From: Candidatus Villigracilaceae bacterium
GTDB taxonomy: Bacteria > Chloroflexota > Anaerolineae > Anaerolineales > Villigracilaceae
Direction: 5' to 3'
NCBI GenBank assembly: GCA_026645935.1
Contig: JAPKMP010000019.1
Span: 1 to 64,000, forward strand
Length of the DNA: 64,000 nt
A program made the translations under genes and the position numbers. Within the stretch, counting starts at the first letter, position 1. Each line of letters opens with the position of its first letter. Shown in pieces: positions 8,029 through 18,267 of this stretch. A model generated the notes under the pieces. It was not told where the DNA came from and did not search any database. It saw only the letters and a list, made by a program, of their open reading frames with translations.

Positions 8029-8784
8029 TCACCCAGAGCGGGTGCGGCGAATAAGACTATAAACGATCAATCCAGCCATAAGCGCAGCGGCTATCCATGC
8101 GGTGTTCACGACCATCGGGGCGGAAGTTTGCTTCACCGCGATTCCAATGAACGCCCAGACCATCACAGAGAGGTAACCCGCATCCCGGCGGGTGATCGCC
8201 ATTGCCACACCCAGCACGGAGGCCACCACAAGCATGATGACAGCCCAGGCAGGGTCGGAAATGCCAAAGCCATTCCATTCGATGAGATACAGCCAGGCTG
8301 TGATGTTGGCAACGGTTGCAACCGTGATCCAGCCGAGATAAACGCTGATCGGAATATCCACAGACCAGCGCTCGGCTGCAGAGACTGGGAGCCGGTTCAC
8401 ATCCAAACGCAGGTAACTGGCGATGAGTAGTCCCAAAAGCAAAAGCATGACCAGCACACTCAGACCGAACTGGTTGTAGTGCCAGCAAAAAAGCCAGCCC
8501 GCATTGGCAAGCCCGCTCAGGGCGAAAAGGTAACCCAACCGCCGCAGCCTCGGGCTTTCCTTTTGGGAGGGTTGAAACTGATATATGGCGAACGCGATCC
8601 AGCCAATGAAAATCACACTCCAAATTGCGAAGACATACCCGGTAGGTACGAAATACACTGGAAAGCGGTCTGAAATCTCACCGGTGTTTTGCCCGTTGAG
8701 CGGCAGGGTTGAGGCAAGGACATTGACCGCCAAAGCGATCAGGACGGAAAACAAATTTGCGGATTGACGCAGAGTATCTTTCAT
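8029..8784 (-). CDS. TspO/MBR-family tryptophan-rich membrane protein
   Basis: A 251-residue membrane protein with about eight hydrophobic segments. The segment FVPTGYVFAIWSVIFIGWIAFAIYQF matches the TspO/MBR signature P-x-x-x-F-x-x-x-W-x-x-I-Y, and Trp is enriched. It is longer than the classic 160-residue TspO and belongs to the long form commonly annotated tryptophan-rich sensory protein. Classic TspO proteins bind porphyrins and tune pigment gene expression in Rhodobacter; transferring that role here is inference. The gene points the same way as crtB and ends 130 bases beyond the crtB stop, so it is possibly in its transcript. Confidence 0.75.
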   Translation of the reverse strand: MKDTLRQSANLFSVLIALAVNVLASTLPLNGQNTGEISDRFPVYFVPTGYVFAIWSVIFIGWIAFAIYQFQPSQKESPRLRRLGYLFALSGLANAGWLFCWHYNQFGLSVLVMLLLLGLLIASYLRLDVNRLPVSAAERWSVDIPISVYLGWITVATVANITAWLYLIEWNGFGISDPAWAVIMLVVASVLGVAMAITRRDAGYLSVMVWAFIGIAVKQTSAPMVVNTAWIAAALMAGLIVYSLIRRTRSG

Positions 8785-8914: not shown

Positions 8915-9862
8915 TTACAGAGAGCGGACTTTCATCCAGAGCGCGGGCAGTTTGGCAACCTTGCCCAGGGCACTCAGGGAAGCACGACGGGAGAAGACGT
9001 CGTAATCGTTCTTTTCGATCTCATCGAGGATGCCGCAATAGAAGGTCGAGGCGGCGCCAATGGCAAGCTGCCCTTCGCGCTCGAGGAATTTCACGCCAGC
9101 CCAAGATTCGGCATACAGTTGGCGCGTCCGTTCAATTTGGAATTTCATGAACTGACGCCAATTATCGGTGACGCGACCTTCGGCGATGTCTTCTTCGCGG
9201 ATGCCGTAGGTGATGAGTTCTTCGCGCGGCAGGTAAAGGCGACCGTTGAGATAATCCTCCCCCACATCGCGCAGGATGTTTGTCATTTGCAGAGCCACGC
9301 CTAGTTTGATGGCATAGGGTACGGCATCGTTGTTCTTGAAACCGACGATGTACATGCTCATCAACCCGACCGTGGAGGCGACGCCGTAACAATAGGTCGC
9401 GAGGTCGTCGAAGGTTTGATAACGACTCTGGGAAAGGTCGCGGGCGACGCCATCGATCAACTGCAAGGCGTAATGACGCGGGATATGGTATCGGGTGAGG
9501 GTATCTGCCCAGGCGGAGGCAACCAGGTCATCGGTCGAAGCGGAGGCGGTTTCGACCACTTTCCGCCAGTAATCCAGTTCAAAGTCGCGGTCTTTCTTCA
9601 ATTCCACTTCATCCACAATATCATCCACGGTACGACAGAAGGCGTACAAGGCGCGGACGGCGGAGCGCTTTTCTTCCGGGAGCAAACCAGAGGCGAAATG
9701 AAATGATTTGCTATGCGCAGCCGTAATGACCTCTGCCTGCTTGTAGGCGGCACGCAGAGAAGCGTCTCCTGCCCAGTAGGAAAAGAAAGGTCGCGTGGAC
9801 GGATGTGGAATATGCCCCGCGAGTGATAATAGTAGATTTTCCCAATTCGCATTTGCTTGCAT
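8915..9862 (-). CDS. crtB: Phytoene synthase (squalene/phytoene synthase family)
   Basis: A 315-residue trans-prenyl condensing enzyme. The two Asp-rich motifs that bind Mg-diphosphate are present: RTVDDIVDE in the first third and NILRDVGEDYLNGRLYLP in the second. The start at 9862 (MQANANWEN) is preferred to the ATG at 9955 because AGGAGAG lies just upstream and the longer version reads through the promoter. It condenses two GGPP to phytoene, the committed step of C40 carotenoid synthesis. It is divergently transcribed from crtI. No GGPP synthase gene is in this window. Confidence 0.95.
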   Translation of the reverse strand: MQANANWENLLLSLAGHIPHPSTRPFFSYWAGDASLRAAYKQAEVITAAHSKSFHFASGLLPEEKRSAVRALYAFCRTVDDIVDEVELKKDRDFELDYWRKVVETASASTDDLVASAWADTLTRYHIPRHYALQLIDGVARDLSQSRYQTFDDLATYCYGVASTVGLMSMYIVGFKNNDAVPYAIKLGVALQMTNILRDVGEDYLNGRLYLPREELITYGIREEDIAEGRVTDNWRQFMKFQIERTRQLYAESWAGVKFLEREGQLAIGAASTFYCGILDEIEKNDYDVFSRRASLSALGKVAKLPALWMKVRSL

Positions 9863-9894: not shown

Positions 9895-9976
9895 ATTTTA
9901 CAGAAAAAATCCGTTTTGTCAAGGTTTTGCAAATATATATTTTAAACCTTGACAAATATTAGACAACGTGTACAAT
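9895..9976. promoter_or_regulatory. Divergent crtB/crtI promoter with shared operator
   Basis: Two mirror-image promoters. Toward crtI: TTGACA 9949-9954, 16-base spacer, TACAAT 9971-9976. Toward crtB: TTGACA (complement of 9917-9922), 16 bases, TAAAAT (complement of 9895-9900). Both -35 boxes lie in an 11-bp perfect inverted repeat, TGTCAAGGTTT (9917-9927) and AAACCTTGACA (9944-9954). On the crtI side TTGACA recurs as TAGACA exactly 11 bases later (9960-9965), resembling the 11-bp direct repeats bound by Thermus CarH. A repressor bound here would occlude both promoters. The likely ligand is the MerR-B12 protein at 11544. Confidence 0.85.
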
Positions 9977-10006: not shown

Positions 10007-11533
10007 ATGAAACCTACCGCTCTCGTGATCGGCGCTGGAATCGGTGGAATTGCCACCGCCGCCCGTCTTGCAAAAAATGGATATGACGTGACCGTGCTGG
10101 AAAAGGAATCCACCCCGGGCGGACGCTGTAATCAGATCGTTCGGGACGGGCACCGCTTCGACATTGGCCCGACCCTGTTTCTCATGCCCGAAATTTGGGA
10201 GGAAACCTTTGCCTCTCTCGGCGAAAAAATGAGCGACCACCTCGATTTGAAGCGCATCGACCCGACCTATAAAGTCCACTTCGACGACGGTCTGCGCCTT
10301 GAATTAACCTCAGACATCGGCAAGATGCAAACCCAGCTTGAAGCCGTGGACAAGACCGCCTTTACCGGTTTCCTCGGCTACATTGCTGAAGGTTCGAAGC
10401 ATTACAAAATATCGGTTGAAAAATTCGTCGGTCGCAACTTCTACAATATCTTCGAATATTTCAGCCTCAAGAATTTACCGTTGATCTTTAACCTCAAAGC
10501 CTTGCAGAAGCACTACACCAACACCAGCCGCTTCTTCAAGGATGAACGCTTGAAGGCTGCCTTCACATTCCAGAATATGTATCTGGGACTCAGCCCTTAC
10601 GACGCTCCCGCCACCTACTCCCTCTTGCAATACACCGAGTTGGCAGAAGGCGTGTGGTATCCCATGGGCGGGATGTACGCTGGTATTCAAGCATTGACCA
10701 AGGTTGCTGAAAAGCTCGGCGTGAAGTTTGTATATAACTCGCCGGTAAAAAAGATCAACGCTGGAAAGTTGAAAGTGGAAAGTGTCATCACCGCCGATGA
10801 CAAGACTTACACCGCAGACATCTTTGTCGGCAACGCAGACCTGCCATACATCTACAAAGAACTTTTGCCCGATGCAAAAGAAGCCAAGAAGCTCGACGAA
10901 AAACTCTACACCTGCTCCACCATCATGTTCTACTGGGGCGTGGACAAGCAATATCCGCAGATCGCGCATCACAACGTTTTCCTCGGCGGTGATTACAAGG
11001 CTTCGTTCGACCAGATCTTCGAAGACCACACTCTGCCGGAAGTGCCTTCGTTCTACGTCCATGCGCCCGCCCGCACCGACGCTGCCGCCGCGCCCGAAGG
11101 ACAGGAAACGTTGTACGTCCTCGTTCCTGTCGGTCACCTGGATGCCCGCAGTGAACAAGATTGGGACGCATTGGTGAACCGCGCGCGCGAAACCGTCTTC
11201 ACCCGCATCGAAAAAGAGATGGGCATCACCGACCTCAAAGAGCATATCAAGTTCGAGATCGTGTACCAGCCCAAAGTCTGGAAGGAGCGCTTCAACCTCG
11301 AAAAGGGAGCCGCGTTCGGGCTCAGTCACAACTTCTGGCAGGTCGGTTATCTCCGCCCGCAGAATCGTCACGCCAAATACAAGAACATGTATTTCGCTGG
11401 CGCATCCACCCACCCCGGCACCGGACTGCCGATCGTCCTACTTTCGGCTCGTCTGACAACTGAGCGAATCCTCAAAGAAAAGGGTACAATAGCTGTGCAA
11501 AAAGTGGTTAAGCCAACTTTAAACCCTGCATAA
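10007..11533 (+). CDS. crtI: Phytoene desaturase
   Basis: A 508-residue flavoprotein. The N-terminal dinucleotide-binding motif is ALVIGAGIGGIATAARLAKNGYDVTVLEKE, followed by PGGRC and the FDIGPTLF block. The C-terminal carotenoid-desaturase signature is represented by MYFAGASTHPGTGLPIVLLSA. The start at 10007 has AAAAAGGAGA upstream; the ATG at 9968 lies in the promoter and is rejected. The enzyme desaturates phytoene, usually in several steps to neurosporene or lycopene; the end product cannot be read from sequence. It is followed after 10 bases by the CarH-type regulator. Confidence 0.95.
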   Translation: MKPTALVIGAGIGGIATAARLAKNGYDVTVLEKESTPGGRCNQIVRDGHRFDIGPTLFLMPEIWEETFASLGEKMSDHLDLKRIDPTYKVHFDDGLRLELTSDIGKMQTQLEAVDKTAFTGFLGYIAEGSKHYKISVEKFVGRNFYNIFEYFSLKNLPLIFNLKALQKHYTNTSRFFKDERLKAAFTFQNMYLGLSPYDAPATYSLLQYTELAEGVWYPMGGMYAGIQALTKVAEKLGVKFVYNSPVKKINAGKLKVESVITADDKTYTADIFVGNADLPYIYKELLPDAKEAKKLDEKLYTCSTIMFYWGVDKQYPQIAHHNVFLGGDYKASFDQIFEDHTLPEVPSFYVHAPARTDAAAAPEGQETLYVLVPVGHLDARSEQDWDALVNRARETVFTRIEKEMGITDLKEHIKFEIVYQPKVWKERFNLEKGAAFGLSHNFWQVGYLRPQNRHAKYKNMYFAGASTHPGTGLPIVLLSARLTTERILKEKGTIAVQKVVKPTLNPA

Positions 11534-11543
11534 CGAGGAAAAA

Positions 11544-12860
11544 ATGCTCAGCAAATCCCCTGCCTTCAACCTGAAAGCCGTATTGCACGAAACCGGTCTC
11601 GCTGCAGACACTCTCCGTGCCTGGGAACGCCGTTATGGACTCCCTGCCCCGCAACGCACGGCAGGCGGACACCGCTTGTACTCACAATACGACATCGAGA
11701 CCATCAAATGGTTGATCGCACGCCAGACAGAAGGACTATCCATCTCCCGCGCCGTGGATCTGTGGAACGAACAAATCGCCTCCGGCTCGGACCCGCTGGC
11801 TGGCGCGGCCTCATCAGGGATTTTCCCCGCCCAAGCCGCCGCCCCCGACTCAAACCTCGAAGCCTTGCGTGACCAGTGGCTCGACGCCTGCCTGCGCTTC
11901 GATGAACCCCGCGCCGAGCAAACTCTCAATCAGGCGTTTTCAATGTATCCTGTCGAACTTGTTTGCACTGACCTGCTCCAGCGTGGAGTGGTGGAGATCG
12001 GCGCGAAGTGGTACGGGAACAGCGCCAGTGTACAGCAGGAGCATTTCGCATCCGCCCTCGCCATGCGCAGACTCGACTCACTCCTCTCCGCTGCCCCCGC
12101 TCCCACGCGAAATGGCACCGCGCTCATCGGCTGCGTCGCGGACGAGTGGCACGCCTTCACTCCCCTGCTTCTTTCTTTGCTTCTGCGCCGCCGCGGCTGG
12201 AATGTTGTCTATCTCGGTGCGAACGTTCCCAATGACCGCTTCGCTGAAACCGCCCAAGCCGTCAAAGCCGACCTCGTCATCCTCGTGGCGCAGACGCTTG
12301 TCGCTGCTGCTTCGCTCCAACTCGCCGCCCAGGGTCTCGCCGTGCAAAACGTCCGTGTAGCATACGGCGGACGCATCTTCAACCTGCATCCCTCACTCGC
12401 GGTGAAAATCCCCGCGCGGTTCCTGGGCGAAAGTATCGAAGTCTCGCTCCTCGAAGCGGAACGGTTGATTCAACATAAAAACATAAAGGTCTCTGAGACC
12501 ATAAAAGCTCCCTCCCAGGAACATCTCGCCGCGCATCAGTCCTTCACCAGCAAACGCGCCGAGATCGAACTCACGCTCAAACAACTCGTCCCGTCGCTCA
12601 CCGTCAGCCCAGGCGGATTGGAAACGGGCATCCAACATCTCGGAGACAACATCGCCGCCGCCCTGCAGCTTGGCGATGTAAGCTACGTCTCCGGAGAGAT
12701 GGATTGGCTCAAAACCCTTCTTCAATCCCATAACCGCCCCGCCTCCGAACTGATCCACTTCATGCGGAGTTACGCACAAGCGGTGGATCGTCACATCAAC
12801 GGCTCAGGCGGACCGATCAAGCGCTGGCTTGCAGATGAAGTTGTAAAACTCAGCGCATAG
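11544..12860 (+). CDS. CarH-type MerR/B12-binding photoreceptor repressor with C-terminal extension
   Basis: A 438-residue protein. The N-terminal MerR helix-turn-helix (residues 7-75) contains LRAWERRYGLPAPQRTAGGHRLY. A helical cap follows with Trp156-x9-Glu166-His167, the W-x9-EH motif of light-sensing CarH proteins. The Rossmann B12 domain has ADEWHAF, in which His203 is the likely lower axial cobalt ligand, then GWNVVYLGANVP. Known CarH tetramers bind AdoCbl in the dark, repress crt genes at their -35 boxes and dissociate on illumination. About 100 extra residues (340-438), which CarH of Thermus lacks, form a helical domain of unknown role. It lies directly in the crt operon, consistent with autoregulation. 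Confidence 0.9.
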   Translation: MLSKSPAFNLKAVLHETGLAADTLRAWERRYGLPAPQRTAGGHRLYSQYDIETIKWLIARQTEGLSISRAVDLWNEQIASGSDPLAGAASSGIFPAQAAAPDSNLEALRDQWLDACLRFDEPRAEQTLNQAFSMYPVELVCTDLLQRGVVEIGAKWYGNSASVQQEHFASALAMRRLDSLLSAAPAPTRNGTALIGCVADEWHAFTPLLLSLLLRRRGWNVVYLGANVPNDRFAETAQAVKADLVILVAQTLVAAASLQLAAQGLAVQNVRVAYGGRIFNLHPSLAVKIPARFLGESIEVSLLEAERLIQHKNIKVSETIKAPSQEHLAAHQSFTSKRAEIELTLKQLVPSLTVSPGGLETGIQHLGDNIAAALQLGDVSYVSGEMDWLKTLLQSHNRPASELIHFMRSYAQAVDRHINGSGGPIKRWLADEVVKLSA

Positions 12861-12886: not shown

Positions 12887-13768
12887 ATGAAATCAACAGA
12901 CCGCACCTCGCTCGTCATATTCCCAATTTTGATCCTGATCGGCTGGCTTGTCGCGCTGGCAGGGAGTCAGGGAAGCGTCGCCCTTGGCGGCGTTCCCGTC
13001 TTCGCCATCGCGGTCGGACTGGCATTCCTAATTCAGTGGCTGGTGTTCATTCCCGCCTTCATCTTCCAGACCGAAAAATACTTCGACCTGACGGGAAGCA
13101 TCACCTACATTACCGTAACTGGCGTCGCGCTTTGTTATAGCCGCTACAGCGTTCCGTTGGATGCGCGTTCGATTCTGCTTGCGGTGTTGGTCGTCGTTTG
13201 GGCGATCCGGCTTGGGACATTCCTCTTCAGCCGCATTCAAAAAGCGGGCAAGGACGACCGCTTCGACGAGTTGAAACCCTCCTTCTTCCGCTTCCTCAAC
13301 GTGTGGACGATCCAAGGCTTGTGGGTCACGTTCACCCTTGCAGCCGCGCTGGTCGCCATCACCACCACAACACACAAAGATTTGGATATCTTCGCCTTCG
13401 TCGGTGTTATGGTCTGGCTCCTCGGCTTCATCATCGAGGTCGTTGCCGACGCGCAGAAAAGCCGCTTCAACGCCGACCCAGCCAACAAAGGCAAATTCAT
13501 TCAAACCGGGTTGTGGTCCCGTTCGCGTCATCCCAACTACTTCGGCGAGATCGTTTTATGGATCGGCATCGCCATCATCGCATTGCCCGTCCTGCAAGGC
13601 TGGGCGTGGATCGCGCTGATCTCGCCGCTCTTCGTCGCGATCCTGCTTACGCGCATCAGCGGCATTCCCCTGCTCCAAAAGAAAGCCGACAGGAATTGGG
13701 GCGGTCAGGCGGATTATGAATCCTACAAAAAGAACACACCTGTGTTGATTCCCAAATTGTGGAAGTGA
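12887..13768 (+). CDS. DUF1295-family membrane protein (steroid 5-alpha-reductase/ICMT-like fold)
   Basis: A 293-residue protein with about eight hydrophobic segments and the C-terminal signature GLWSRSRHPNYFGEIVLW, which in this superfamily forms the NADPH or SAM site. The DUF1295 group includes predicted reductases and methyltransferases of lipids. Its position between the photoreceptor and the photolyase, 26 bases after the former, implies expression under light control. A role in modifying a carotenoid or membrane lipid is inference only. Confidence 0.85.
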   Translation: MKSTDRTSLVIFPILILIGWLVALAGSQGSVALGGVPVFAIAVGLAFLIQWLVFIPAFIFQTEKYFDLTGSITYITVTGVALCYSRYSVPLDARSILLAVLVVVWAIRLGTFLFSRIQKAGKDDRFDELKPSFFRFLNVWTIQGLWVTFTLAAALVAITTTTHKDLDIFAFVGVMVWLLGFIIEVVADAQKSRFNADPANKGKFIQTGLWSRSRHPNYFGEIVLWIGIAIIALPVLQGWAWIALISPLFVAILLTRISGIPLLQKKADRNWGGQADYESYKKNTPVLIPKLWK

Positions 13769-13776
13769 GGGAAGCC

Positions 13777-14121
13777 ATGAACATCCTCAAGATCCTTCAA
13801 GTTGCCGCTGTCGTCCTCACCATCGTAACGGGACTTATCTCCCTGATCGCGCCGCGCAGTGTCTTTGGTTTTACGGGGCTTGAAGCCCCGGGTCCGCGCG
13901 GCATTTCTGAAATCCGCTCCATCCTTGGCGGAGTCTTTATCGGTCTTGGCATTGCGGTCTTCATCCTCGGCACTCAGCAAACCTACCAGATGCTCGGCAT
14001 CACCTACCTCGCCATCGCTGTCGTGCGGCTCGTTTCGATATTTGTGGATAAAGCCTCCGAACGATCCAACTGGATCAGCCTCGCCGTTGAGATCGTCTTC
14101 GGCATACTGCTTATCCTTTAG
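13777..14121 (+). CDS. Small four-helix membrane protein of unknown function
   Basis: A 114-residue protein with four predicted membrane segments (LQVAAVVLTIVTGLISLI, LGGVFIGLGIAVFIL, YLAIAVVRLVSIFVD, ISLAVEIVFGILLIL). The start at 13777 has GAGGG nearby and avoids overlap with the upstream stop. The segment GGVFIGLGIAVFILG resembles DUF4345-like proteins, but I am not sure. It is cotranscribed with the DUF1295 gene (8-base gap). Confidence 0.75.
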   Translation: MNILKILQVAAVVLTIVTGLISLIAPRSVFGFTGLEAPGPRGISEIRSILGGVFIGLGIAVFILGTQQTYQMLGITYLAIAVVRLVSIFVDKASERSNWISLAVEIVFGILLIL

Positions 14122-14148
14122 TTTTCCCCACATAATTAAGGAACCGCC

Positions 14149-14817
14149 ATGTTAATGGACACCCTGCGCTACGAATTACCGCCCGAAGGCATCACGCTAT
14201 TGGGATACATCGTCCGGCGAATGCACAAGACCGAGTGGCTGGTCAAAGCCGCGAAAATGCTCGAAGCGAACGAGACCGCCAACACTCTCGAAGCGGTTGC
14301 AATGTATGCCGTCGCTTCCGCCACCTCGTTCGGACGCGCCTATTACCAGCCGAACTTCAACAATGTCGGCGAAGCTGTCAGCGAGCGCGACCCGTTCACA
14401 GGCGCAACCGTCTCGGCAAAATTGATCAGCAGTTCGCCCGCCTACCGTATCACATACTCCGCCGAAATGAGCAATAACGACATCTTCGAAGGCGCTGAAA
14501 CCATCCTCGGAACCACCATCGGCTTGCGCGGTTTGGGTATGCCGGCCCCTTCCAACTTCACCTTCCGATCAAAAGCCTATGAAGCCGAATTGAAAGGCAC
14601 ACTCACCAGCGAACTGGCTCTTTCGCTTTTCGGCAATACCAAGATCCGCGCGTACGGCTCGCTCGATTTCAGCGACTCGGCTGGCAACAATGGTCATCTC
14701 GACCTGAACCGTCAGGGATATGTCACACTGCGCGTCAACGACAAGCCCGCCGTCACAAACGCCCTCGTCCGTGTGATATGGCTGGATGAACCGAAACCCG
14801 CTCCGCAAACGATATGA
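14149..14817 (+). CDS. Unknown protein in the carotenoid/photolyase operon
   Basis: A 222-residue soluble protein that I do not recognise. It begins [30 protein letters not shown]; the middle is rich in Asn, Ser and Thr and alternates like beta strands ([25 protein letters not shown]). No signal peptide or membrane segment is seen, and no metal or nucleotide motif. AAGGAAC precedes the ATG. It overlaps the photolyase start by ATGA, so translation is coupled. The fixed position inside a light-response operon suggests a related job, which cannot be named. Confidence 0.75.
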
Positions 14818-16157
14818 CCGCGATCTGGTGGATTCGGCGCGACTTGCGGCTCGCGGATAACCCTGCGCTTCAAGCTGCGCTCGCAAAGGGTCCAGCGCTT
14901 CCGGTCTTTATCCTCGACCCGGCATTCGATGACTCATCTCCTCGCCGAAAGAGTTTCCTGTACGAAGGCTTATCTGCATTGGGGGGGGAACTGCGAAAGC
15001 GCAATTCATATCTCGTAATTCGTAAAGGAAAGCCAATTGACGCGCTGCGCGATCTCTTTGATGAAGTCAAAGCCGAGGCCATTTACGCCGAGGAGGATTT
15101 CACGCCCTACGCCCGCAAACGCGATGCACTGATCCAAAAACTCCTGCCGCTGAATCTGATTCAAGGTCAGACCGTACATCACCCCAAAAACATACTCAAG
15201 CAGGATGGCAGGCCCTACACAGTGTACACGCCATATTCCAAAGTGTGGAAGGCGCAGTTTGCGATGATAAAACTGCATCCTGCACCGGAGAATATCAACA
15301 CACCCAGGGGAATCCGCTCAGAGCCGCTACCCGATTTCACACACAATCTGCTTTTTCCAGCAGGCGAAGCAGAGGCAATGCAACGCCTCGACCAGTTTAC
15401 CAATTTACCAATCAGCAATTACTCAGACCACCGCAACCGCCTTGACCTCGACGGCACCTCCTCCCTCTCGCCGTACATCCGCTTTGGCATGGTTGGCTTG
15501 CGTCAAGCTGTCCACGCCTCACATGTTACGCATCACGCAGATTCTAAAGGCGCAGAAATCTGGCTCAACGAACTCATCTGGCGCGAGTTTTACATTCAAA
15601 TTTTGCATCACTTCCCGCAGGTCGCAAAGACCGCCTTCAACCGCTCGCTGGCGAACATTCCGTGGCGGAACAAAACGTCAGAGTTCGAAGCGTGGAAGAG
15701 GGGCGAAACAGGCGTCCCGGTGGTGGATGCGGCGATGCGTCAACTCAAAGAGTCTGGTTGGATGCACAACCGCGCCCGCATGATCGTCGCATCCTTTCTC
15801 GTCAAAGATTTACTGATCGACTGGCGCTGGGGCGAAGCATGGTTCATGGAGAATTTACTCGACGGCGACATTGCTCCCAATAACGGCGGCTGGCAATGGA
15901 CGGCGGGAACGGGAACCGACGCCGCGCCGTACTTCCGTATCTTCAATCCCGTGCTGCAATCGCAAAAGTTCGACCCGAACGGCGATTACATCCGCAAATG
16001 GGTGCCGGAACTGCGCGGATTGAACGCAAAACAAATCCATGCGCCGTGGGAATTCGATCTGAAGATTGCAGGATATCCAACCAGTCCGATCGTGAACCGG
16101 GACATTGTAAAAGAACAAACGTTGACGGCGTACAGCATTTCAAAAGGCAAGGCATGA
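14814..16157 (+). CDS. phr: Deoxyribodipyrimidine photolyase, class I/cryptochrome family
   Basis: A 447-residue protein. The N-terminal antenna domain starts [18 protein letters not shown]. The FAD domain contains [39 protein letters not shown], the [20 protein letters not shown] block and RIFNP, followed by [15 protein letters not shown]. These are the flavin and CPD contacts of class I photolyases. It repairs UV pyrimidine dimers using blue light. Start and stop overlap both neighbours by ATGA, making a tightly coupled trio with the unknown gene upstream and the P450 downstream. Confidence 0.95.
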
Positions 16158-17422
16158 AGCAAAACATTTCCCCCGAACTCGGTCGCGCCGCACTGCGCTC
16201 ATTGATACAGGAAGGCTCGCCACTTGGTCCGCTAAAGGTGATGGCAAAATACGTTGGGCGTTTCTTCCAAATTCCGATTCCCGGCTTTCGCCCGTATGTG
16301 GTCTTCGGTCCCGAAGCGGCGCGAAAAGTGTTGGTGACCGATAGAAACAAATTGTTGTGGCGCAACACCGACCCGGTGACCGACCTGCTACGGCGCGGCG
16401 TGCTGGTGACCGACGGCGAAGAGCACGATCGCTACCGCAGTTTGATGGAAACTCCGTTTCATCCATCGCAGTTATCGAAATACAATGAGATGATGATTCA
16501 ACAGACCGAACGCGTTATATCCACCTGGCAGGACGGTCAGACCGTGGATATGCTGGTCGAAGGGCGTAAGATCGCCCTGCTCATCATCATGCAGACTTTA
16601 TTCAATAAAGACGCGTGGAATGACATTTCAAAGATATGGAATCCGATCCTCAAGACCATTCAATACATCTCACCGGGGGCATGGATCCTTTGGCGAAAGA
16701 TGCCGAGGTTGGGATATGGAAGGTCGTTGAAGGTGATCGATAATTATATGTATGGAATCATTGATGAAAGAAGGAAAGACGAAAGAAAGACAAACGATTT
16801 TCTACAACATTTGATCGACGCCGGGTTGAGCGATGACAACATCCGCGACCAGATGTTGACCATGCTCATCGCCGGGCACGATACATCCACCGCTTTGTTC
16901 GCATGGACATTTGCCCTGCTCGGTCAACACCCTGAAATCCATGAAAAAGTGATACAGGAAATTGACCGTGCAGAAGGTAAATATCAATTGCTGGATAACG
17001 TCATCAAAGAGTCGCTGCGGTTGTATCCGCCCATTCACATTGGCAACCGCCGGGTGGCAGAGGAAATTGAATTTGCGGAGGGCAAAATCCCTGCCGAAGA
17101 GCGCATGTTCTACTCCATCTACCTCACCCATCGCGACCCGGAAATTTGGGAGAATGCTGAGCAGTTCTGCCCGGAACGTTTCGCCCACGGACGGAAAACT
17201 CCGCCAATGAGCTATATTCCGTTCGGTGGTGGTCCGCGGGCATGCATCGGCGCGGCGTTCGGTCAGGTCGAAGCGCGACTCGTCCTCGCTCACCTGCTCA
17301 AGAACTTTCGCTTTGAATTTACCGGTCACCCCATCCACGCGCACATGGGCGCAACATTGGAACCCAGACCGGGCGTACTGATGAAGGTTTTCCGTAGGTC
17401 GCGCTCGGAGCGTGATGAATAA
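16154..17422 (+). CDS. Cytochrome P450, probable carotenoid hydroxylase (CYP175-like context)
   Basis: A 422-residue P450. The I-helix oxygen-activation motif is AGHDTST (240-246), the K-helix ExxR is ESLR (286-289) and the heme loop [10 protein letters not shown] has Cys364 as thiolate ligand. The start at 16154 overlaps the photolyase stop (ATGA). In Thermus the carotenoid cluster carries CYP175A1, a beta-carotene 3-hydroxylase, next to photolyase and crtB. The same neighbours and a co-located lycopene cyclase here make ring hydroxylation the best guess. Redox partner genes are not nearby. Confidence 0.9.
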
Positions 17423-17469: not shown

Positions 17470-18267
17470 ATGACTTACTTTGGTTTTCTCTTACGCTTTC
17501 TCGTAATCCCCATCCTTGTCTTTCTCGCCATCGCATGGTGGGACAATAAAAACAACCGCCCGACATTAGGCTTCAAGAATGGCAAAGCGGTATGGATTGG
17601 TATTCTCATTCACATCATCCTTGCGGTGGCATACACAACACCGTGGGACAACTATCTGGTTGCCACCGGTGTTTGGTATTACAACCCAGACCTCGTGACC
17701 GGCATCGTGATCGGTTATGTGCCCATCGAAGAATATACCTTCTTTGTGCTGGAAACAATCCTTGCCGGTTTATGGTGGTGGTTCCTCGCACGGCGCATCC
17801 CCGAACCGACAAACGAGTTCAAGCCCAGTAAAACCGGACGCATAATTTCGTTTGGTGTTCTGTTCGTCCTCTGGGTCATCTTCACCTACCTGTTCTTCTT
17901 TGGTGGCGTCGATCTGACCTATCTCTCCATCATTCTGTTCTGGGCGCTGCCTGCCATCTTCCCGCAAATGCTTTTTGGCGCTGATATCCTTTGGCATTAT
18001 CGCAAGCTGGTCTTCACTGCGATCTTTGTCCCTGGGTTATATCTGTCGTTTATGGATATCATCGCGCTCACAGACACCACCTGGTCAATCTCCAGGCAAC
18101 AGACCACCGGTATCCTCTCCTTCAATATCCTGCCATTGGAAGAAGTCCTTTTCTTTTTCATCACCAACGTACTTATCGGTTTTGGAATGACGCTGTTGCT
18201 ATCAATAATTGGCGTAAAACGCTTCGATGATTGGAAAACAAACAAATTCCGGGGCTTTCCTGCATAG
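17470..18267 (+). CDS. crtYcd: Fused lycopene cyclase-domain protein (CrtYc-CrtYd type)
   Basis: A 265-residue protein with about seven membrane segments and two tandem lycopene cyclase domains. The first has TPWDNYLVATGVWYY and PIEEYTFF (85-92); the second, after a linker, has PLEEVLFFF (222-230). In actinobacteria the halves are separate genes (crtYc, crtYd); in fungi and archaea they are fused, as here. The paired Glu residues are considered catalytic. It would cyclise the ends of lycopene, giving substrate for the P450. The second TPWD equivalent is degenerate (LTDT). It lies 47 bases after the P450 and is likely the last crt gene. Confidence 0.92.
   Translation: MTYFGFLLRFLVIPILVFLAIAWWDNKNNRPTLGFKNGKAVWIGILIHIILAVAYTTPWDNYLVATGVWYYNPDLVTGIVIGYVPIEEYTFFVLETILAGLWWWFLARRIPEPTNEFKPSKTGRIISFGVLFVLWVIFTYLFFFGGVDLTYLSIILFWALPAIFPQMLFGADILWHYRKLVFTAIFVPGLYLSFMDIIALTDTTWSISRQQTTGILSFNILPLEEVLFFFITNVLIGFGMTLLLSIIGVKRFDDWKTNKFRGFPA

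Follow-up and report, generated by a model that had tools for sequence, protein, structure and literature searches.

A predicted CarH-type operator with outward-facing repeats between divergent crtB and crtI promoters in Chloroflexota

We have analysed a window of 64,000 nucleotides (the whole stretch of DNA under study) in which a gene of the phytoene synthase family, crtB (8915–9862, minus strand, start at 9862; Pfam SQS_PSY 4e-80), and one of the phytoene desaturase family, crtI (10007–11533, plus strand; TIGR02734 5.1e-149, above its cut-off), diverge from an intergenic region of 144 bp. This region very probably holds a CarH-type operator that overlays two back-to-back promoters of the sigma-70 type, one for each gene. 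Judged by comparison of sequences and by modelling, the operator would be well conserved and of a new layout, and its putative regulator would carry an extra domain predicted to be like that of bilin proteins. We propose that the predicted B12 light sensor, the carH product, would hold both pigment promoters off in the dark, and that at each promoter one 11-bp CarH repeat would coincide with the -35 box and another would adjoin it. Light would break the Co-C bond, the CarH-like protein would release the DNA and both operons would fire; since release of the crtI promoter would also drive carH, this gene would be negatively autoregulated. B12-based light control of carotenoids would thereby extend, through a predicted operator, to a mostly metagenome-assembled group of Chloroflexota, and the crtB/crtI site offers a cleanly testable operator.

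The best NCBIfam models for crtB were PhytoSynCyanob and HpnD, both under their cut-offs, and the gene downstream of it on the same strand is tspO-like (8029–8784, minus; Pfam TspO_MBR 2.6e-6). On the other side, crtI is followed by the carH-like gene (11544–12860, plus), which codes for MerR and B12-binding domains and a C-terminal domain predicted to be globin-like. Next comes what is probably the remainder of the crtI operon (12887–17422, plus), with DUF1295, DUF4345, an orphan, a photolyase and a P450, its extent being judged from short gaps and overlaps. The short gaps between the genes make it probable that the crtI promoter also drives carH, which would hence control itself. Between the DUF4345 gene and the photolyase, positions 14149–14817 encode a 222-aa protein without a Pfam match that has a relative in another genome (G125, locus L055). 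Behind the P450, the frame at 17470–18267 has a weak lycopene cyclase match (24.7 bits vs. a cut-off of 27) and is perhaps a further member of the carotenoid operon.

The promoter scan found both of the diverging promoters that the first-pass annotation had described. On the plus strand TTGACA-16-TACAAT (9949–9976, -10 box at 9971–9976) would serve crtI and on the minus strand TTGACA-16-TAAAAT (9922–9895, -10 box at 9895–9900) would serve crtB; each has 11 of 12 matches to the sigma-70 consensus. They are the best two of 11 promoter-like sites across 11 kb, in which shuffled sequences average 6.6 sites of any quality. Classical activation by MerR acts on promoters with spacers of 19–20 bp, so the 16-bp spacers found here point to repression rather than to activation of that kind. 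The annotation had also described a perfect inverted repeat that takes in both -35 boxes and leaves 16 bases between its arms; this stands, except that the arms (9915–9927 and 9944–9956, 100 percent complementary) are 13 nt long and not 11 nt. Dinucleotide shuffles of the 144-bp region gave arms of at least 11 nt in 12 of 5000 cases and of at least 13 nt in two, and a TGTCAA...TTGACA pair with 2–54 bases between its halves occurs a single time in the window, which is the intergenic one.

Published CarH sites are described, in the accessible text of PMC9304148, as 11-bp repeats of the form nnnnTnnACAn with the -35 box inside one of them. The crtB/crtI region reads as two such repeats facing left and two facing right. 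On the crtI side, the repeat that contains the -35 box (9945–9955, plus; TTGACA at 9949–9954) is followed by a second one lying in the promoter spacer (9956–9966, plus; TAGACA at 9960–9965). TAGACA thus stands 11 bp after TTGACA as first reported, and the likening of this step to the spacing of CarH direct repeats agrees with the published sites, as far as the accessible text of PMC9304148 goes. On the crtB side, the repeat with the -35 box (9916–9926, minus; TTGACA at 9922–9917) is accompanied by an element absent from the earlier description, TTTGCA (9933–9928, within the repeat at 9927–9937, minus), which on the crtB strand precedes the -35 box by exactly 11 bp. Relative to the -35 box, then, the second repeat lies upstream on the crtB side and downstream on the crtI side. 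An A+T-rich centre (9938–9944) separates the two pairs, the innermost facing hexamers being 21 bp apart from start to start (9928 to 9949). Compared with the CarH consensus (relaxed form TnnRCR), the crtI side has two strict repeats and the crtB side one strict repeat and one TnnGCA. The array also shares with CarH operators the overlap with a -35 or -10 box, one repeat of each pair being a -35 box. In Thermus and B. megaterium the operators line up three or more contiguous repeats the same way; here there are two per direction, and for this reason we class the array as a variant of the CarH operator and not as one of the Thermus type. Rfam gave no match in the window at gathering thresholds.

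A comparison of this intergenic region across related genomes had been proposed as a check, and it came out in favour of the site. The search covered 151 genomes from the order and 152 from the family, and the crtB-crtI intergenic regions were then read. The comparison set consists of 61 divergent regions of at most 330 bp, 60 of them crtB/crtI and one crtB/carH (G228), from 59 genomes (G212 and G262 occur twice each, on two contigs), with 56 regions of the family and five of family f14. It was reduced from 72 crtB rows, the 11 others being left out for gene order, distance or second copy: G174 (1050 bp between the genes), a second copy in G237, three genomes with crtI more than 3 kb off (G036, G049, G009) and six with a different gene order (G223, G079, G197, G218, G196, G151). 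Pieces at contig edges (L147 of G255 and L173 of G221) were left out as well. Both TTGACA boxes are kept in 61 of the 61 divergent regions, with TAnnnT at the 16-bp spacing in 56 (crtI) and 58 (crtB), counts that come from related genomes and are thus non-independent. The second repeat, as TnnRCA, is found in 52 of the 61 on the crtI side and in 43 on the crtB side; in the strict form TnnACA the figures are 48 and merely 17. The columns tell the same positions apart. At +11 on the crtI side T reaches 0.98 and A, C and A reach 0.89, 0.91 and 0.91, and at -11 on the crtB side the values are 0.82 for T, 0.88 for G or A, 0.78 for C and 0.91 for A. These conserved columns are the T and ACA positions of the CarH repeat as the accessible part of PMC9304148 gives it. 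Family f14 retains the -35 boxes and the spacing class, and its second repeats are not kept (TnnRCA in 0 of 5 on either side). In three loci (L052, L056, L061) the crtB side has one more hexamer, TGTNNA, whose distance from the -35 box of crtB is 9 bp instead of 11.

TTGACA is also the plain -35 consensus, so its conservation alone says little about CarH, and the weight falls on the second repeats and on the 11-bp register. For the register we used as a control the loci around carH in the best 80 of 571 named relatives of this gene. There TTGACA and TnnRCA stand at the exact 11-bp step 31 times downstream and 43 times upstream, whereas any one of the 15 remaining steps between 6 and 21 bp gives 0–4 cases and each reversed pattern gives one. 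This control is the strongest evidence for an element of the CarH kind over a mere promoter.

The array also goes together with the regulator. The pattern TTGACA-N5-TnnACA-N5-TAnnAT was found in 50 of the family's 152 genomes, against two for its reversed form as a control, and in 43 of these 50 it lies beside crtB, crtI or carH. A carH gene is present in 48 of the 50 genomes with the pattern and in 41 of the 102 without it, and likewise in 62 of the 63 family genomes with crtB vs. 27 of the 89 without. Furthermore, four genomes (G252, G284, G175 and G234; loci L294, L303, L304 and L308) have the same back-to-back array between divergent tspO and carH, and no crtB was found in them at E 1e-60; the array therefore accompanies the regulator gene and not only the pigment genes. 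Counting against this, seven loci (L289, L291, L295, L297, L298, L299, L301) have carH without a back-to-back array upstream. Taken as comparative genomics, the earlier proposal of one CarH-type operator serving both promoters is well supported. The seven loci just named show repeats of the TGTGCA, TATGCA, TTTGCA or TGGACA type in 11-bp steps, adjoining a TACAAT or TAGAAT -10 box. In the other seven pattern-bearing genomes (G181, G184, G224, G226, G240, G262, G263) the pattern lies away from crtB and carH, and these could be further targets or chance. In the window's own genome the pattern occurs once, at the crtB/crtI site; AACCTTGACA with one mismatch is hardly enriched there (231 vs. 211 for the reversed pattern) and TNGACA-N5-TNGACA gives four matches, one being the crtB/crtI site, vs. 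three for the control. From this lack of enrichment in its own genome comes no evidence for a wider regulon of such form.

The geometry of the array is constrained. Over the 61 regions the -35 boxes are 22–26 or 32–37 bp apart from start to start, with singletons at 13 and 46 and none at 27–31. At a period of 10.5 the Rayleigh R reaches 0.75 for 33 combinations of genus and distance, and only 0.61 when all 61 rows are counted; the periodicity is broad (R is 0.77 at 11 and at 11.5), and the two leader lengths in these regions are hardly periodic, with R of 0.15 and 0.16. In a scan for facing pairs, with gaps allowed from -5 to 60, the innermost start-to-start gap was 12–15 (19 places) or 21–25 (29 places) in 48 of 48 arrays, with nothing at 16–20 or elsewhere and not a single convergent array; the arrays were counted as distinct on sequence and not on lineage, and some few loci had entered the scan through a paired pattern that allowed start distances of 13–43. 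This rule of two classes holds independently of which unit bears the -35 box. The classes are ca. one helical turn apart, the gap of 21 (12 arrays, including the one in the window) being ca. 3 bp off the class at 24–25. On a CrtI tree of 58 rows (G243, G228 and one row of G212 were left out, and 19 of the 55 inner branches are weak) short and long gaps switch at least 12 times. We read the constraint as keeping both pairs on about one face of the DNA, a reading of phase that is post hoc and made on related genomes. It suggests a single assembly spanning both promoters, so that one twofold-symmetric complex (a tetramer, or two touching dimers) may bridge them on one DNA face.

An alternative to such a bridge, which we consider rather unlikely, is that two CarH operators are simply neighbours and act independently; each pair would repress its own promoter, with no contact across the gap, and the gaps would reflect descent and packing. 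Each side alone has the tandem-repeat form that has been published, and the genomes compared are related. In addition, when up to 2.2 kb upstream of carH was scanned strictly at 78 named loci (of the best 80 of 571; some contigs are short), the 61 loci with a long CarH (>390 aa) gave facing pairs in nine cases, one-sided or widely separated pairs in 23 and none in 29. What two separate operators would leave unexplained is that all 48 facing arrays fall into two narrow gap classes, that no array is convergent, that the classes switch repeatedly on the CrtI tree, and that the leaders of the same regions vary with hardly any period. The same scan bears on how general the layout is. One long-CarH locus (L221) has a triple in one direction, and one genome (G079) combines a short CarH with the outward-facing layout, so that layout and CarH length are not strictly tied. 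By these comparisons the outward-facing layout is the rule at crtB/crtI in the window's family, and not in all lineages with a long CarH.

The perfect inverted repeat, rare by chance as the shuffles show, could alternatively be a classical palindrome for a dimer of an unrelated regulator or of a MerR protein, with the 11-bp repeats being incidental. This we consider very unlikely. Among the relatives the start-to-start distance between the two hexamers runs from 13 to 46, a spread that a rigid palindrome would not allow; the second repeats keep their step of exactly 11 bp, and the array recurs at another gene pair, tspO/carH. With its halves set at differing distances from one relative to the next, the inverted repeat is no rigid palindrome; what recurs, by sequence, is a set of two outward-facing pairs of 11-bp repeats whose gap is constrained. 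Least probable of all are ordinary strong housekeeping promoters without any operator, TTGACA and A+T-rich flanks being kept for strength, since this would suit the near-consensus match of both promoters and the five f14 regions that retain promoters only, but promoter strength leaves the TnnRCA in the spacer, the upstream repeat and the 11-bp register unexplained.

The candidate regulator for this CarH-type operator, the protein encoded from 11544, matches Pfam MerR_1, MerR, B12-binding_2 and B12-binding above their cut-offs, that is, the domain set of CarH/LitR. In a sequence search against solved structures Thermus CarH (5c8d, 2.4e-24) was second to 3whp alone. The AdoCbl residues of CarH are given, in the accessible text of PMC11796333 and PMC8156234, as Wx9EH, the lower axial His, GxxW and GxxxP. 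The corresponding residues of the regulator (G153, W156, E166-H167, H203, G225 and P229) are invariant and the CarH signature is present. Wx9EH and the lower-ligand His are invariant among 26 and 49 aligned proteins, and of the 80 loci all 78 examined have Wx9EH, L237 and L253 being left out. GxxH, part of the light-response signature of CarH (PMC11796333), reads DEWH in the window protein and GEWH in several relatives, the His being kept. The NCBIfam equivalog model for CarH, NF052513, scores 133.8 bits vs. a cut-off of 400; by sequence the regulator is a relative of this narrow model and not a member. Among the best 80 of 571 named relatives, those nearest to the regulator come from metagenome-assembled genomes labelled Anaerolineales, Anaerolineaceae, Anaerolineae or Chloroflexi, records very close to the window itself possibly falling outside this set; the window thus probably belongs to a member of the Anaerolineales in the Chloroflexota. 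The window's own genome has a corrinoid adenosyltransferase (PF02572), a supply of AdoCbl.

The C-terminal domain of the regulator (12477–12860, plus, about residues 312–438) is predicted to be globin-like, and 61 of the 78 CarH-like proteins exceed 390 aa and are long enough to contain it. An AlphaFold2 model of the regulator from 49 sequences has a pLDDT of 92, and the last 127 residues modelled alone one of 90. The best fold matches of the full model were photocobilins (8j2w, 8j2x and 8j2y, at ranks 1–4 and 6), then Thermus CarH. For the domain alone, the 50 best Foldseek rows were phycobiliproteins, the biliverdin-binding smURFP or one "bacterial fluorescent protein", all at weak E values (0.02–0.09) and with no photocobilin among them. 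Its VIA Z was 13.5 with allophycocyanin and 11.9 with the photocobilin 8j2w, and a Z of ca. 13 can be reached by helical bundles through arrangement alone. The whole-protein sequence profile aligns into the globin part of photocobilins, and a profile of the C-terminal domain alone found no phycobiliprotein or photocobilin. The call of a phycobiliprotein-like fold rests on the uniform family of the matches together with the matching order of domains, and on these grounds we predict for this domain the fold of phycobiliproteins, the light-harvesting proteins of cyanobacteria, and of the bilin domain in photocobilins. Binding of biliverdin by the modelled regulator is doubtful, since the own genome has no match to the heme oxygenase family PF01126 (the one family searched); the key biliverdin Asp of SasPcob has no secure position in the window protein. 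One may speculate that the TspO beside crtB or carH relates to the source of a bilin.

It is possible, and we put it forward only tentatively, that a repressor with MerR, AdoCbl and bilin-type globin parts binds the phased four-repeat operator as a single assembly and so clamps the two promoters. The globin domain of this three-part receptor would then widen the range of colours or set the oligomer. If true, such a receptor in a single assembly would add a mode of CarH action to those that the accessible parts of the sources cited here describe for Thermus, Bacillus and myxobacteria. As modelled, the regulator would connect the photocobilin fold with control by CarH, a link of interest for tuning the colour response and for optogenetic switches of two genes. 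Photocobilins (8j2w, 8j2x, 8j2y) have the same order of a B12 domain followed by a globin-like domain, according to the accessible text of PMC10979010. The modelled regulator differs from the proteins in that text by the addition of a MerR DNA-binding domain and by sitting with a predicted CarH operator.

CarH at divergent crt promoters has already been reported for Sorangium. According to the accessible text of PMC9304148, expression of both divergent crt gene pairs depends there on B12 and on light, a CarH chimera was shown to bind and to leave footprints between the divergent pairs, and control from a single site was proposed. The likeness to the crtB/crtI site, within that text, is that a CarH site is proposed for two divergent carotenoid promoters and that relaxed repeats are tolerated. 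The Sorangium footprint, though, covers three tandem repeats under overlapping promoters, as described in the same source, whereas here there are two outward pairs, each with its own -35 box. The operators of Thermus thermophilus and Bacillus megaterium share with ours the consensus, the 11-bp register and the -35 box within a repeat (PMC9304148 and PMC8156234, in their accessible parts). They differ, as far as these parts go, in having three or four repeats in one direction in place of two each way with a constrained gap. For operators running one way, the accessible text of PMC9304148 counts three repeats for Thermus and four for B. megaterium, with three to five, full or partial, for myxobacteria, and sites with fewer full repeats are reported there to work. 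Because the arrays described in these texts run one way, the outward layout with its constrained gap would be a new handle on how CarH assemblies are seated on DNA. The gene order recalls the Thermus litR/crtB cluster, in which CarH/LitR and a divergent crtB operon share an intergenic region; there, by the accessible text of PMC7662524, the litR operon starts at the shared region, whereas here crtI does, with carH behind it. A search of the open literature agrees with the first-pass annotation in finding, among the matches listed, no characterised CarH operator of Chloroflexota, most subscription papers lying outside its scope.

Within the same phylum, the predicted operators of the short CarH of Chloroflexales have TGTGCA or TACACA, TTGACA and TGTGCA in 11-bp steps upstream of carH. 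They differ from the crtB/crtI array by running as three tandem repeats in one direction and by a CarH of about 302–307 aa, without the C-terminal domain. Such a one-directional triple was found in six of eight loci of Chloroflexales, Chloroflexaceae, Roseiflexaceae or Oscillochloris (L238, L239, L241, L242, L248, L249), and those of the form TGTGCA-N5-TTGACA-N5-TGTGCA, for example, are predicted CarH operators of the Thermus type. Over 400 genomes of the phylum the paired pattern occurs in 28 genomes (vs. four for the reversed one), 10 of them in the window's family and 18 outside. These 18, like the non-universal layout and the share of pattern-bearing genomes (43 of 50) with the pattern at the expected loci, touch the generality of the arrangement and not the reading of the crtB/crtI site. 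One genome outside the family (G539) has a site that, by eye, resembles the same array.
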